From: Chaetoderma sp. LZ-2023a
Lineage: Eukaryota > Mollusca > Caudofoveata > Chaetodermatida > Chaetodermatidae
Assembly: GCA_034401795.1 (NCBI GenBank)
Contig: CM067373.1
Span: forward strand, 93,569,103 to 93,633,102
DNA: 64,000 nt
Reading direction: 5' to 3'
Below the pieces are notes generated by a model, which was given only the letters and a program-made list of their open reading frames with translations, had not been told where the DNA came from and searched no databases. This document shows positions 6,070 to 49,079 of the stretch, one piece after another. The translations under genes were made by a program, and so were the position numbers. The stretch's first letter is position 1, and the number at the start of each line of letters is the position of its first letter.

Positions 6070-7339
6070 AGGATTGAACTACCGGTATATATTATATATT
6101 AGATTTGACACCCATGTTCAATCACCATTGTACGCAGTATCAATGACTAGAAAAAGCATCATAGTCACTCCGCAGCACTAGCAGCTGTACACCATTTTAT
6201 TCATTCCAGGTCTTCCATTTCTGGCAGATTGCCGAGCAGACAGCTATAGGCATGATTACCAGTGATGAAATCCCTGCGTCAATGACCATAGACCTCGCCT
6301 TTATATGGCCGCATAACCGAAAGGACAGGCCCTAATTCGACATCAGGACAATTAGTGTGGGTAATCTCTGGCTAGTTTAAGACAGATTAAACTACATTAA
6401 TGGCTACTGAAAATAGTGAGCCAATTTTAAGGGTGGTACATTGGAAATCAGACACTGCGCGTCTGACTGACATGTCTCGATCGATAATAATCCATAAAAT
6501 TGAGGAGTGATTTTCAACTTTATTATACCCCTGCGGAAATGGCAGAATATTTAGTAATCACTCCATCTATCCCAGTTTGAGTCGGCTTCATCCATCCATT
6601 TATCCATAAATTCTTTTCTGGAATAATTGTATCACTTACACAAACCAAGTATGATTTTCTTGATGCATTTTACAGAAAACTTAGAATGCGCTCGAGGGAG
6701 ACGCCTTTGCGCTAAATGTCTTAACAATGCGCTTAGTAACCCCAGTGACCTAGATAGTTGATCTATTGACACTAAACTCAATCATAAACCATCGTAATAT
6801 GAAGGTGTGTGCTAAATATGATGATTGTGTCCATAGAAATGTATATATAATATCATTCTGGCGTCTTGTACTCCAGAGTTATAGCCAAAGATGTTTATTC
6901 CGGTATGCACTTCATGACCCCATGACCTAGATATTAAATTTTTTGTCAAGAAACTCATTGAACTTCCACCCACTTATGAATGTGCCAAATTTGGTGTTTC
7001 TACCTACTTGTGTTCATTATTTATGCCTAAAAATTTATATTTTGTGATACATTTAGTGAACCTTTGACCTAGATATTTGACCATTTGACCTCAAACTAAT
7101 TTTGTGTCTAGCCATCTATAATCTATAAATCGATATGCCAAATTTGAGTATATATATATATATAATATAATTTCATCAGTTTCATATTCACAACGAATCT
7201 ATAATGATCTGGATTCATTTTCAACAATACATTGTACATGTATCTTGTATTACAAGTTGATCAGTCCTTTAATTCATTGAACAACAAAAAAGAATTCAGT
7301 AACACTTTAGAATAGTAAAGTCAACGAAAAATTACTTTA
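6070..7339. other. intronic sequence with old repeat debris
   Basis: No coding signal. About 6540-7160 has recurrent phrases such as TGACCTAGATATT and CATCCATCCATTTATCC, a style shared with the block at 38580-38900, and is probably an old dispersed repeat. A short (TA)n run lies near 7149-7166. Confidence 0.35.
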
Positions 7340-7349
7340 AAGTGATCGT

Positions 7350-9010
7350 AGCGAATGACCATTTGCAGGCCAAGAGAAGACTATTTTTGTTAGTTTTACG
7401 ACTGGAATGACTGGCGCGGTTATTGAGTCAGTCATTCTATTGTTAGTTTTACAACTGGAATGACTGGCGCGGTTATTGAGTCAGTCATTCTATTGTTAGT
7501 TTTACAACTGGAATGACTGACGCGGTTATTGAGTCAGTCATTCTATTGTTAGTTTTACAACTGGAATGACTGGCGCGGTTATTGAGTCAGTCATTCTATT
7601 GTTAGTTTTACAACTGGAATGACTGACGCGGTTATTGAGTCAGTCATTCTATTGTTAGTTTTACAACTGGAATGACTGGCGCGGTTATTGAGTCAGTCAT
7701 TCTATTGTTAGTTTTACAACTGGAATGACTGGCGCGGTTATTGAGTCAGTCATTCTATTGTTAGTTTTACAACTGGAATGACTGGCGCGGTTATTGAGTC
7801 AGTCATTCTATTGTTAGTTTTACAACTGGAATGACTGGCGCGGTTATTGAGTCAGTCATTCTATTGTTAGTTTTACAACTGGAATGACTGACGCGGTTAT
7901 TGAGTCAGTCATTCTATTGTTAGTTTTACAACTGGAATGACTGGCGCGGTTATTGAGTCAGTCATTCTATTGTTAGTTTTACGACTGGAATGACTGACGC
8001 GGTTATTGAGTCAGTCATTCTATTGTTAGTTTTACAACTGGAATGACTGGCGCGGTTATTGAGTCAGTCATTCTATTGTTAGTTTTACAACTGGAATGAC
8101 TGGCGCGGTTATTGAGTCAGTCATTCTATTGTTAGTTTTACAACTGGAATGACTGGCGCGGTTATTGAGTCAGTCATTCTATTGTTAGTTTTACAACTGG
8201 AATGACTGGCGCGGTTATTGAGTCAGTCATTCTATTGTTAGTTTTACAACTGGAATGACTGACGCGGTTATTGAGTCAGTCATTCTATTGTTAGTTTTAC
8301 AACTGGAATGACTGGCGCGGTTATTGAGTCAGTCATTCTATTGTTAGTTTTACAACTGGAATGACTGGCGCGGTTATTGAGTCAGTCATTCTATTGTTAG
8401 TTTTACAACTGGAATGACTGGCGCGGTTATTGAGTCAGTCATTCTATTGTTAGTTTTACAACTGGAATGACTGACGCGGTTATTGAGTCAGTCATTCTAT
8501 TGTTAGTTTTACAACTGGAATGACTGGCGCGGTTATTGAGTCAGTCATTCTATTGTTAGTTTTACAACTGGAATGACTGGCGCGGTTATTGAGTCAGTCA
8601 TTCTATTGTTAGTTTTACAACTGGAATGACTGGCGCGGTTATTGAGTCAGTCATTCTATTGTTAGTTTTACAACTGGAATGACTGGCGCGGTTATTGAGT
8701 CAGTCATTCTATTGTTAGTTTTACAACTGGAATGACTGGCGCGGTTATTGAGTCAGTCATTCTATTGTTAGTTTTACAACTGGAATGACTGGCGCGGTTA
8801 TTGAGTCAGTCATTCTATTGTTAGTTTTACAACTGGAATGACTGGCGCGGTTATTGAGTCAGTCATTCTATTGTTAGTTTTACAACTGGAATGACTGGCG
8901 CGGTTATTGAGTCAGTCATTCTATTCATTAAAATTTCAAAAATGCTCTTCCTGTCCTGCAAATGGACTTGCTTAAGCAAATATTTTAATTATTTTATTAA
9001 ATTTGCTCTT
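7350..9010. mobile_element. FB-A MITE whose core has expanded into an array
   Basis: The left flank (CATTTGCAGGCCAAGAGAAG, ACTATTTTTG) and the right flank (ATTTCAAAAATGCTCTTCC, TGCAAATGGACTTGC) are the two halves of an ordinary FB-A copy. Between them lies the 53-bp tandem array. The outer limits are approximate because the TTAA ends are degraded or merged with the neighbour at 9009. Confidence 0.85.
7401..8930 (+). repeat. 29-copy, 53-bp minisatellite made from the FB-A hairpin core
   Basis: The phrase ACTGGAATGACTG recurs from 7401 to 8885 at exactly 53-bp spacing (28 intervals, 1484 bp) with no length change. Each unit contains a short inverted repeat (GAATGACTG/CAGTCATTC) and a linker CTATTGTTAGTTTTACAA. 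Units differ at few sites: GACTGGCGCGG or GACTGACGCGG, and rarely TACGACTGG. The A form is in units 3, 5, 10, 12, 17 and 21. There are no variable spacers, so this is a satellite and not a CRISPR array. Confidence 0.97.
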
Positions 9011-9212
9011 AATGGTCGTACCGGCCAAAATTGGACTTTGTTATCATCTTGTGGAATGTCCATTTACAGTCCAAGAGAATATAATTTTTGAAAATTTAAC
9101 ACTGGAATGACTGGCTCGTCATTCCAGTGATAAATTTTCAAAGATAGTCTTCTCTTAGCCTGTAAATGGATGTTCAATTAGCAAATATTGGATGGAAGGA
9201 TTAAAGGGTTAA
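9009..9212. mobile_element. FB-A MITE, abutting the array-bearing copy
   Basis: Begins CTTAATGGTCGTACCGGCC and ends TTAAAGGGTTAA. The central hairpin is shortened to GACTGGCTCGTCATTCCAG. Confidence 0.8.
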
Positions 9213-12176: not shown

Positions 12177-12513
12177 TCATACATCATCATCATCCCTTAA
12201 TAATTTATCATCATCATCATCCCTTAATAATCTATCATCACGACCACCACCACCATCATCATCATCATCCCTTAATAATCTATCATCACCACCACCACCA
12301 CCATCATCATCATCATCGTCATCATCATCCCTTAATAATCTATCATCACCACCACCACCACCACCACCACCACCACCACCATCATCATCATCATCCCTTA
12401 ATAATCTGCCATCATCATCATCCCTTAGTAATCTGTCATCATCATCATCATCATCATCGTTCCTTAATAATTTGTCATCACCACCATCATCATCATCATC
12501 ATCATCATCATCT
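12177..12513. repeat. compound (ATC)n/(ACC)n microsatellite with a recurring CCCTTAATAATCT insert
   Basis: Runs of ATC and ACC are punctuated about nine times by (C/G)TTAATAAT or close variants (CTTAGTAAT). Long frames appear in several phases (poly-Ser/Pro, poly-His, and Asp-rich on the other strand), as a triplet repeat free of stops produces. There is no splice context, so I do not call a gene. Confidence 0.9.
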
Positions 12514-23722: not shown

Positions 23723-23953
23723 ATTAAACCGTCAAATTTGTTCATGAAAATTTCAATTTTCTCATTGAAAATGTCAACTAGGAGACGATTAGTATATTAT
23801 TTCTGAAAATTCACCAGTGGAATGACTGGCTCACTTATTGAGCCAGTTATTCCAGTGTTAAATCTTTAAAAAAGTCTTCTTTGGATGCAAATGGACATTT
23901 TTCAAGACAACTACAGAAACCGTTCTTAGCCAACTTGAGAGTTAAAGCGTTAA
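23723..23953. mobile_element. FB-A MITE, near full length
   Basis: CCGTCAAATTTGTTCATG at the left and GAGAGTTAAAGCGTTAA at the right. Core GACTGGCTCACTTATTGAGCC. Confidence 0.85.
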
Positions 23954-26056: not shown

Positions 26057-27144
26057 ATGTCTAACCTTCTAACAAGAAACTGTGCTCGACATCCTCGGAC
26101 AACGCAATCTTCCCAGGAGCTTACTATAGCTACGTGGAATGTACGTGGTCTGACTGCAACATCAAAGAGGCAGAGCAGACCTTAGGTGCAGACTGTGAAC
26201 ACTATAAGATCGACATCACATGCATTCAAAAGACTAAAGTAGCTAAACACTCAGAGCAGAAACTTCAGACAGGCCATAAGTTAGTACTCATGGAGCAAAA
26301 ACAGGCCACTTACTGTGGATTAGGCTTCGTAATCTGATCTCGGGTATTGGACGATGTCATTAGTTTTGGATACATCAGTGATCGTGTTGCATTTGTCGAC
26401 CTGGCTATACCAACGCGAAAGCGCACCACCATTGAGTGCCGCATAGTCAATGCATATGGGCCAACTACCGAAAGGGCCAAACATAATCCAGCTATATTAG
26501 ATTCCTTCTATGCAGAACTGAGCTCCACCATTACTATCCCAGCTAGATGGCAACTGTTCGTGTGTGGCGATTTCAACTCCAAGCTGGGTAAACTCGGCAC
26601 TGTGAACAAAAGTTCAGGACTTGGCTCATGCTTGGGATCATATAGAGAGGGCACACGCAACAGCAATGGAGATGCACTGGTGGCATTCCTTAGTTCCAAT
26701 GGCCTATTTGCCACAAATATGGCTTTCAAACACCAATGCCGTCACCGGACAACATGGACTGGACACATTGCTGATCGCAAAGCCCCAAAAGGTTCTAAGG
26801 CTAGAAAAGCTGTCCTCAACCAAATAGATTTCATACTATGCAAGACAGCAGCAAAACCCCTACTTCGGGATGCTCGTTCCTATGGAGGCACATTCCTCAA
26901 TTCTGACCATAAGCCAGTCATTACACGCCTCCATATGAACCAGCTCTACCTAATGTATAAACGCCATACCAGGCAAGAGGGTAGAGTCGCCTACAACTTA
27001 CCCAAGCTCATCAGCGACACTGACACTCAAATGTCATACAAAAGGGCCCTCGGGGAGCAGATAGCTGAAATTGATGTCAGCTCCGATCCAAACAAAGCCC
27101 TAACCAAAATACTGATATGGAATCATCAGCTACTAGCACCATAG
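26057..27144 (+). pseudogene. LINE endonuclease (EEP/APE-type) domain, broken
   Basis: An ATG at 26057 opens a frame with IATWNVRGLTA, the first conserved strand of EEP nucleases. A frameshift near 26155 moves reading to the next frame (DITCIQKTKVAKHS, where QET is usual; LVLMEQKQATYCGLGFVI). One stop at 26335 looks like a CGA-to-TGA change. The frame then continues through IVNAYGPTTERA, FVCGDFNSKLG and LNSDHKPVITRLHM, the GDFN and SDH motifs that hold catalytic and metal-binding residues. The enzyme class nicks target DNA to prime reverse transcription. It ends at a TAG at 27142, followed by a damaged linker. Confidence 0.93.
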
Positions 27145-27289
27145 GTGTTCTGAAAACAACAGAACTAGGTATACTGATGACCTCTCGTAGTAAAACTGTC
27201 AGCATAACAGAAAGCGTTACATCTGCACATCTATCAAAGTGGCCAAAGTGAAGATCGCACCAAACTATGCCAGGGACGCAATAACATTC

Positions 27290-29078
27290 TGCGCCACATT
27301 AGCGAACGCTTAAAAGATCTTGCTATCCAACAAGCAGACGCCTTAGTAGATGAAATCACTGCCACGGATGACTGCCACAAAATGTTTCGAGCAGGCCGAG
27401 CCCTGAGAGTTGCTGACTACACACCACCACTAACTGTACACAACTCTGAAGGACACTTTATCGGGACTGACCAGGGCAAAGCCGAGGCAATTCGAGAATG
27501 GTTTAAGAAACAGTTCACTGACCACGATGATGAGTGCTTGGACCCATTCTCAGGAGACCCCAGGCCATTACTAACACCAATTAATACAGCAGAGGTTGAG
27601 AAGGCACTTAAAGCCCTGAAAAATGGAAGTGCATCTGGACCTGATGGCATGAGCAATGAACTATTCAAATATGCAGGTGATGTTATCTCAAAACCGATCA
27701 CGCACATAATCAATTCAGCTTTTATGCACCACCTTCCCATCGACACTGTAGGCCAAGGCATCCTTATCACGCTACCCAAGCCCAAGAAGCCGCCTGGCCC
27801 CCCAGCCAATCTGCGGCCCATTGTGCTCCTTAACAGCATACGGAAAATCCTATCCAATGTTACTCTATGCCACATCCGAGACAAGATCGACGACTTCCCT
27901 GGATCATGTCAAAGTGGCTTCAAATGTGGATGCAGCTGCGCAGACATTGTATGGGCTCAACGCATGCTTGTGTCAGTAGTCATGTCCAAACACTGGGATT
28001 TCCACAAAATGGACATTGACATGTCACGAGCCTTTGACACAATTAAACGCTCAAAGATCCTAGACGCACTATGCCAGGCCAGTTGCAATGAGCTATGGCT
28101 AGTGAGACTACTGCTTGCAGACACCAAGCTGAGAGTATGAGTCAAGTCAGTGAAGTCTGTAGAGTTTGAGACATCAATCAGCTCCCCACAGGGAGATGGT
28201 CTATCCCCTGTGCTCTTCACCTGTTACATGGCTGCTGCATTGAAATCCGTGTAGGAAAACTCCACAAGACCAAAAAAACCTGGTGTCAATACTGGGCATG
28301 CCGCTAGAGATGGAAAATGCCGACGATGTGGACTTTATAGATGAGGAAAAGAAACCGCTTGACGACCTTCTCCCAATAGCTGCAAGCAAACTAAAAATTG
28401 AGAATCTTTTTGAATGAATCCAAAACAGAGTTCACCCACATATACCTATCTACAAAGCATGAAACTAAAGAAAATGACGATCCACTCCATGGCGGCGAAC
28501 CGTGGAGGAAAAGTAAAATCCGCTGCATCATGGGGAACATAGCTTTCGAGTCCTTCTGGAAGCTATGGATTCGTGGATAAAAGATGCCCTTGGTAAAAAG
28601 ACTGCGTCTATACAATGCAACATGCGTATCCTTGATGATGTATAACTGTAACAGCTGGGCAGCTCCAAAGGCAGCGCTAGACAAACTTGACGCCTGCCAC
28701 CACAAACACCTACGCACCATCACTGGACACCGATGGCCAGAGAGCATAATTTCCAACGATGCACTATACAAGATGTGTAATAGGTCGCGGCTATCTGTAA
28801 AAGTCACCCAGCAAAGATGGTCCATGTTTGGCCATGCGCTAAGGATGCTTGAAACACACTAGCACAGAGAGCCTTGGAATTCGCCCCTACTCGGAGCCAG
28901 CAAATATAGAGCCAGGAGAGGACGTCATTGCATAAATCTGCTAAGCGTGCTACGAGGTGACCTCAAGAAAGCAGGATTAGGTACACTCAAGTCAAGAATG
29001 GACCTGAGGAAGCTAAGGATTTTGGCTGAGGACAAGACACAGTGGGCAAAAGCGAAGAAGGGCTTATTGCAGCTGTAG
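27290..29078 (+). pseudogene. LINE reverse transcriptase and C-terminal region, broken
   Basis: It resumes with AIQQADALVDEITATDD, then KNGSASGPDGMSNELFKYAG and PKPKKPPGPPANLRPIVLL (RT fingers). DIDMSRAFDT is motif A with the catalytic Asp. A stop at 28138 is followed by SPQGDGLSPVLFTCY (motif B). In another frame ENADDVDFID is motif C, with Asn in place of the usual Tyr of YADD. The C-terminal part reads LMMYNCNSWAAPKAALDKLD and QQRWSMFGHALRM, typical of LINE tails, and ends LRILAEDKTQWAKAKKGLLQ. At least five frame breaks are present. I do not assign a LINE clade. Confidence 0.92.
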
Positions 29079-30985: not shown

Positions 30986-31098
30986 TTGGTGCGGACAATG
31001 GAACCTGTTGTTTCTGGTCTGTGTGGGTTAAAGCCACAATCAAGACCTCTCCTGAAGACGTTTATGATGTTTATTTATTTATTTTTATTATTTTTTAG

Positions 31099-31463
31099 GT
31101 CAAAGTATGCATCCAGACATGTACGATCCCATGAAAGCTGGCTACGCTCATATGGCGGATGGAACGCAGAGAGGATATGAGATGCTTGGAATGGGAATGG
31201 CTGGGGCTGACATGTACGGGTCATCACCTATGAGTGGCTCACCTTATTCTGGTATGTCTCAGCTTCGACCACCAGTTCACTCACAGACAATGTTGATCCC
31301 GGGTCACCCGCATCATATGATGATGGGTCATGGCCACAGTGGTTCGGCGGTGGCAGGAATGTCGGGTCATCATGGCATGTCTTTGCAGTCGGCTCAAAGT
31401 CCCCCTCTCCACGGCGGTATGGACAGCATGGGGCAACATATTCAGGACATTCATGCCGGCTAG
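31099..31463 (+). CDS. Meis: Meis last coding exon: C terminus
   Basis: It follows TATTTTTTAG. The first two bases complete a Gly codon, then QSMHPDMYDPMKAGYAHMAD runs on to a stop at 31461-31463, about 120 residues. The sequence is rich in Met, Gly, His, Ser and Pro with no globular look; HPHHMMMGHGHSG is the most biased part. A low-complexity C terminus of this kind is usual in Meis/Hth and carries activation function in studied species. The long final exon, phase match and absence of stops support a real coding end. It is longer than the vertebrate Meis1 tail. GC content and codon use differ clearly from the surrounding AT-rich MITEs. Confidence 0.93.
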
Positions 31464-45865: not shown

Positions 45866-46160
45866 GCAATGGACCTTTCCATTTTTAGCTATGCCCCGCC
45901 CATGTCTAGCTAAGCTCCGCCCACACCTCGATCGTTTTGGGATCGGTCGATCTCTGAACTCCCTGACTATCAATTTCCAGAAAACTATGACAGCAACAGC
46001 GTTCGGTCAAATTAGTTTCAACATATTCAACAGCATGTTTATTAAATAGTAGAGACATGCAATTCGTGTAACGTGACGGACTATTAAGAGTTAAAGACTT
46101 TATCAGAATCATTTATGATGTAATGATTATGACATCATTACTCTGGAACGGTCCATTTCA
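45866..46160 (+). mobile_element. FB-D MITE, left hairpin arm deleted
   Basis: AATGGACCTTTCCA at the left and TGGAACGGTCCATT at the right form inverted ends of 14 bp with one difference. The GCCCCGCCCATGTCTAGCTA and GGGATCGGTCGATC blocks are present. The left arm is missing (GAAAACTATGACAGCAACAG). Confidence 0.9.

Positions 46161-48616: not shown

Positions 48617-48620
<4 letters not shown>
48260..48620 (-). pseudogene. Harbinger transposase, N-terminal piece
   Basis: Reverse strand, after the CTA array: VFMDRVNPLESYKEDQFIKP matches the RxNPLExxxDEEFxxRF entry segment. After a stop come VTKNSCNDILAVLRLELQHP and ARRSCALPLSSPISV (family R..AL....Q....L). Then frames break (MFTPPYSKSGWGRYPVIH). 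Confidence 0.8.

Positions 48621-49079
<459 letters not shown>

Follow-up and report, generated by a model that had tools for sequence, protein, structure and literature searches.

Results

A 29-unit minisatellite inside one FB-A copy

Very probably, a single old copy of the palindromic element FB-A tandemly duplicated its central 53 bp in place, and ordinary array processes later enlarged this doublet to 29 units and kept them uniform. The array lies in the window, by which we mean the whole 64-kb stretch of DNA analysed here (C15:93569103-93633102 of the 2.44-Gb assembly), and its copy number is taken from that one assembly. For this array, it is established that unit and linker come from FB-A, that FB-A sequence flanks the array and that the unit-to-unit junction is private in the assembly; comparable duplications and arrays with other joints are likewise established elsewhere in the genome.

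Tandem Repeats Finder (TRF) places the array at 7387-8925 on the + strand (period 53, 29.0 copies, 98% matches, 0% indels, score 3022), and all 29 units are 53 bp long when written out. A preliminary description of this DNA had reported 29 units of 53 bp free of indels, which agrees with our result; it had put them at 7401..8930, where the array indeed lies, with bounds 14 bp late at the start and 5 bp late at the end. The consensus is matched exactly by 22 of the 29 units, and variation is confined to two columns: an A/G variant in column 14 (units 1 and 12) and a G/A variant in column 28 (units 3, 5, 10, 12, 17 and 21). This gives four distinct unit sequences, with a mean difference between units of 0.9%. 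Along the array, the column-28 variant shows no significant regularity in its spacing (P 0.25), and the variants hence do not reveal the steps of expansion; nor is it significant that all six units with A in this column fall within units 1-21 (P 0.11).

Units of 10-100 bp in tandem, at kilobase scale and at a single locus, define a minisatellite, and an array of 29 x 53 bp at one locus falls in this class. Satellite DNA forms long arrays that mostly occupy many loci or heterochromatin; this class was considered and rejected for an array of 1.5 kb whose junction is found at one locus, and given this locus and length, we speak of a minisatellite. Of the earlier phrase 'satellite seeding from a transposon palindrome caught in place', the origin from the FB-A centre stands, while 'satellite' does not.

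The array had also been called recent. Units differ from one another by 0.9% on average, while the collapsed copy mismatches the consensus at 21 of 137 aligned letter pairs. This contrast is compatible with a recent origin, but an older array would show equal uniformity after homogenisation, and age is inseparable from homogenisation here.

Flanks, unit and linker derive from FB-A

When the left half, one unit and the right half are joined, their alignment to the FB-A consensus contains 116 identities, 21 mismatches and 5 gap positions. The locus minus 28 of its 29 units reads as one ordinary diverged FB-A copy, and FB-A halves therefore flank the array, as first described. The left portion of this copy occupies 7300-7386 (+), with the outer end reaching to about 7300 and the left palindrome arm starting at 7354; compared with FB-A outer ends, the left end scores 43 at best (maximum 28 in 300 letter shuffles). 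After the array, at 8926-9015 (+), this copy continues with its right palindrome arm and its outer end, the latter (aligned over 8956-9015) scoring 57 against a shuffled maximum of 32; the limit of this outer end is uncertain, and the next FB-A copy adjoins it with its left end. That adjoining copy (9047-9175, +) is an ordinary one with a single short core and 58-nt arms that are 84% complementary, and its positions 9054-9175 fold at -36.6 kcal/mol.

By consensus alignment, the repeated unit consists of the FB-A palindrome centre plus the short ends of both arms. Two consecutive units align ungapped to 60 consensus positions, linker included, with 50 of them identical (score 80; maximum 34 in 200 letter shuffles, one strand scored). 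On this alignment the linker CTATTGTTAGTTTTACAA, previously thought to be new, is FB-A arm sequence. The best reading of this linker is a junction at which part of the right arm meets part of the left arm, because the duplicated piece has both its ends inside the palindrome arms. The exact position of the joint is ambiguous, as two placements fit: the window's own flanks give a 2-bp microhomology, TT, which opens the array on the left (7387-7388) and closes it on the right (8924-8925, +), and the family consensus also fits a degraded form of the word AAATTT, which is present in both arms 53 bp apart.

FB-A is an abundant palindrome that looks like a piggyBac-type MITE

FB-A is a near-perfect palindrome of about 150 bp, whose consensus, made by eye, is 98% self-complementary over 151 bp. 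In single-stranded DNA folding an intact copy reaches z -20.3 against shuffles. The exact core pattern has 43,943 forward and 43,883 reverse matches genome-wide (reversed control 0), and the window alone holds 36 merged FB-A places, counting fragments and the array. Short, numerous and built as an inverted repeat, FB-A is a MITE.

Its ends read TTAA / CCCTTTAA, with TTAA at the element boundary beside the terminal CCC, a combination that is the signature of piggyBac elements. Among 42 outward FB-A flanks, overlapping and satellite loci having been excluded beforehand, 27 contain TTAAAGGGTTAA at no more than 2 mismatches (shuffled control 0) and 15 contain no such match; TTAA ends 25 of the 27, although the query itself partly requires TTAA. 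The genome has 119 matches to piggyBac transposase (PF13843), several with long stop-free open frames, against none in any of 14 control genomes. By its ends, and with these transposase matches in the genome, FB-A looks like a piggyBac-type MITE. We also considered FB-A as a foldback (FB) transposon proper, of the Tetris/Galileo type, and rejected this, internal tandem repeats not being its normal state.

The array is private

At up to 3 mismatches, the 40-base unit-to-unit junction has 28 matches genome-wide, all 28 in the window array (reversed control 0). The array is thus private in this assembly and most likely arose in place; a dispersed satellite was rejected on the same count. The preliminary description had reasoned that the flanks would be incidental if the array stood without FB-A halves at many loci, and the genome-wide check found no such loci. 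It had further taken the other FB-A copies of the window to have a single core, and the exact whole-core tandem pattern indeed has no match in the window outside the array. TRF (score 50) likewise found no internal array at the other FB-A places of the window, except for a run of 2.2 copies at 23731-23777 that overlaps one of them by 10 bp.

Other features of the window

Two further tandem tracts were observed, one of about 150 x ACT (48618-49070) and one a 48/66-bp compound repeat based on ATC runs (12207-12512). A 21-bp motif like CCATTTCTAGCTAAGCCCCGC forms short tandem runs at unrelated places (window 45879-45923; L010 163-305). Remains of a non-LTR retrotransposon lie at 26338-28140 (+), where adjacent open frames give a reverse-transcriptase match and a weak endonuclease-like match below the Pfam cut-off. 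An open frame at 31068-31463 (+), rich in His, Met and Gly, has no Pfam match; by eye we take it to resemble the C-terminal part of Meis/homothorax proteins.

Tandem duplication recurs across the FB-A family

The exact whole-core tandem pattern has 55 matches at 21 loci (reversed control 0), of which the window array accounts for 28 matches and the other 20 loci read as doublets. The linkers of 15 of these 20 doublets fit a right-arm piece plus a left-arm piece at 80% or more, and the remaining 5 fit a simple arm-arm joint poorly. Half-core repeats beside an intact core were found by exact pattern at 13 further loci (control 0). Such exact patterns, whether whole-core, half-core or outer-arm, miss diverged doublets and arrays (L009, for example); a looser search for core pairs gave 1,417 matches against 2 in the control, and a narrower one 929 against 2.

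Among the matches listed, at least 12 core-derived arrays of three or more units were found, with different periods. This tally was drawn from the looser search within C1 and from the narrower search as far as C5, together with the window array and one array from a search that scored the best 40 of 1,067 candidates; since it rests on the matches listed, 12 is a lower bound and no census. The shortest units are those of L082 (19 bp x 3.0), L080 (22 bp x 53.8; C2:135129622-135130805), L081 (23 bp x 23.7), L056 (24 bp x 5.1) and L084 (27 bp x 3.3). They are followed by L009 (38 bp x 5.1), L085 (40 bp x 3.2), L083 (46 bp x 8.7), the window array (53 bp x 29), L079 (55 bp x 3.1) and the C1 array (65 bp); L086 is a mixed 9/40-bp array that extends beyond the stretch examined. 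The 22-bp half-core unit of L080 recurs in a second block about 3 kb off (C2:135133986).

Element halves stand on both sides of the window array, L081 and L084, and also of the 45-bp doublet L057. One clear FB-A side is present at L056, L079 and L082 (the other side of L082 being weak, E 0.003), L086 has FB-A on its left, the sole side examined, and L085 has only a short right FB-A piece. No FB-A half was detected directly beside L009, L080 or L083, and an FB-A piece lies about 118 bp from the L083 array.

The largest array, at C1:188426045-188493544 (L054, L055, L058, L060-L063), spans 67.5 kb with about 1,029 units of 65 bp summed over TRF pieces, and is long enough to qualify as a satellite. 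It has one internal gap, and assembly gaps of 500 N bound both ends. The unit, which agrees with FB-A at 55 of 68 positions, is derived from the FB-A centre. A three-unit query gave full-length matches at the C1 array alone, among the best 38 of 126 candidates; within the array itself it listed little from 188.427 to 188.466 Mb, and as these known parts were missed, its lack of matches elsewhere is weak evidence. Around this array we also observed two other satellites, one of 21 bp beyond the left gap and one of 49 bp in samples about 0.1 Mb to either side. Tandem duplication thus recurs in the FB-A family, from doublets through arrays with element halves and arrays without detected flanks to a 67-kb satellite.

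Does the palindrome centre drive duplication?

The preliminary description had proposed hairpin-assisted or rolling-circle amplification. In a hairpin-driven process, the centre would extrude or fold, replication would switch template there, and the centre would be a hotspot of tandem duplication. A single 53-bp unit does fold far better than its shuffles (single-stranded DNA folding, -10.3 kcal/mol, z -5.8), as does the intact FB-A copy, but the hairpin strength of the unit is no evidence of hairpin use. A hotspot can be sought by comparing the core with the outer arm, for which we used as control an outer-arm pattern with an equal number of fixed letters. Single outer arms number 39,627 genome-wide (control 1), and their tandem pattern has 46 matches at 7 loci (control 0). 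Computed with 88 of the first 100 listed exact-core matches, tandem loci occur 2.5 times as often at the whole core as at the outer arm per physical core (P 0.02), but the ratio drops to 1.35 per stranded match (P 0.32). The outer arm makes arrays too, with matches spaced by multiples of about 58 bp across 4.1 kb at C12:95700561-95704631 and a 44-bp array at C11:93268253-93268394. Arrays of outer arms, together with a ratio that is 1.35 or 2.5 according to the way of counting, mean that the palindrome centre is at most mildly favoured for tandem duplication, and they do not establish the amplification route first proposed. Moreover, hairpin-mediated template switching often yields inverted copies, whereas the FB-A duplications are direct. 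We consider hairpin-driven amplification unlikely; the recurrence of FB-A duplications probably reflects, for the most part, the sheer copy number of the element.

Another account concerns the joint itself and is a finer version of in-place duplication, not its opposite. Being its own reverse complement, AAATTT has the same orientation in both arms of FB-A and forms a direct repeat there; mispairing of its two copies, 53 bp apart in the consensus, would give a duplication of exactly 53 bp, in the manner of the Haber-Louis origin of minisatellites (PMC3389668). It is the sole direct word of 6 bp or more shared by the arms within 31 bp of the core; shorter shared words are spaced 63 (the 5-bp ATTTT and AAAAT) and 62 (the 4-bp TTTT and AAAA). 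Across the 21 whole-core duplication loci, period 53 occurs at 3 and period 63 at 3 (P 0.0017; 0.0076 without the window), with one of the two spacings of C1:43388951 used (64, not 62). Yet this test was devised after the periods had been seen, P becomes 0.012 once period 62 is included, period 53 alone is not significant without the window (2 loci, P 0.13), and 15 of the 21 loci have other periods. Junction overlap averages 2.13 bp in 15 well-fitting linkers against 1.35 for random joints (P 0.026); the comparison leaves out 5 poorly fitting linkers of the 20, a set that does not include the window linker. In the window linker itself, 13 of 19 positions agree with the joint predicted from AAATTT (shuffles 2e-4), but the plain TT joint fits the real flanks without AAATTT, and a strict search for exact arm-arm joints gave 2 loci, neither with an AAATTT overlap. 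Slippage at AAATTT is therefore possible, although we lean against it.

Two further accounts bear on the array as a whole. Tandem arrays are sites where assemblies err, and a shorter or longer array could have been falsely expanded or collapsed; we saw 500-N gaps at the longest FB-A-derived array of this very assembly. Against such an artefact, the variants in columns 14 and 28 have no significant block-copy pattern, 1.5 kb is within the span of ordinary long reads, and FB-A arrays with other unit lengths exist. We regard it as highly improbable. Still harder to credit is a mobile or dispersed satellite, the array having arrived by transposition of an array-bearing MITE or having landed within an FB-A copy. 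MITEs with internal tandem repeats occur in other animals (reviewed in PMC12628747), but here the unit is FB-A sequence in register with its flanks, and the junction has no second place in the assembly at up to 3 mismatches. We thus favour duplication in place, in which the central 53 bp of an old single FB-A copy, a palindromic and probably piggyBac-type MITE, would have been tandemly duplicated at the window site; unequal exchange, replication slippage or gene conversion may then have enlarged this doublet to 29 units and maintained their uniformity.

Discussion

The origin of the first tandem duplication of a future satellite is poorly known. FB-A offers a natural replicate experiment, in which a short, well-defined and very numerous element has been duplicated at dozens of sites (by exact patterns 21 whole-core, 13 half-core and 7 outer-arm loci). 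Its stages run from doublets to a 67-kb satellite, which opens breakpoints, microhomology and the choice of period to statistical measurement rather than description from single cases. A bolder idea, which we think improbable at present, is that a palindromic MITE acts as an intrinsic satellite seed. Self-complementary arm words automatically flank the centre as direct repeats, and would thereby set a small number of favoured periods at birth (53 and 63 bp); private minisatellites would be continually supplied, of which a few would become true satellites such as that on C1. If so, FB-A would be a 'satellite nursery' where replicates show each stage in the birth of a satellite.

That satellites arise from MITEs and foldback elements is already established, and the FB-A arrays are of the same kind. 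In the open-licence literature, as judged by title and opening of the abstract, we found no description of a comparable replicated series; as far as could be seen, the unusual aspect is the number of separate array births from one element family in one genome.

One similar system is Tetris of Drosophila virilis, a foldback transposon with the TIR-220 satellite for which unequal crossing-over was proposed: there, too, a non-autonomous inverted-repeat DNA transposon turned its own sequence into tandem repeats and these into longer arrays (PMC4079207). In Tetris, however, the repeats lie inside the terminal inverted repeats and the 220-bp unit is family-wide, whereas FB-A arrays differ in unit and those found mostly involve the palindrome centre (PMC4079207). 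The MITE satellites Xstir / Xmix and miDNA4 of Xenopus share with FB-A repeats from or in the MITE interior and arrays still within the element, and microhomology has been invoked for miDNA4; they differ, as described (PMC12628747, PMC9659126), in having one repeat type per element family, where FB-A has different units at separate loci. A tandem repeat within MITE ends is likewise seen in BrickBuilt of Porphyromonas gingivalis, a MITE with a 23-nt minisatellite, but this element is bacterial and its array is described as part of the element, with 19 places in one strain (PMC4596501). Also comparable are the human minisatellites derived from transposable elements (Ahmed and Liang), which began within single element copies and are in some cases flanked by short direct repeats; according to the authors, established mechanisms account for only 6% of these human tandem repeats (PMC3389668). 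They are spread across many element families (PMC3389668), whereas FB-A provides replicates from one palindromic MITE.
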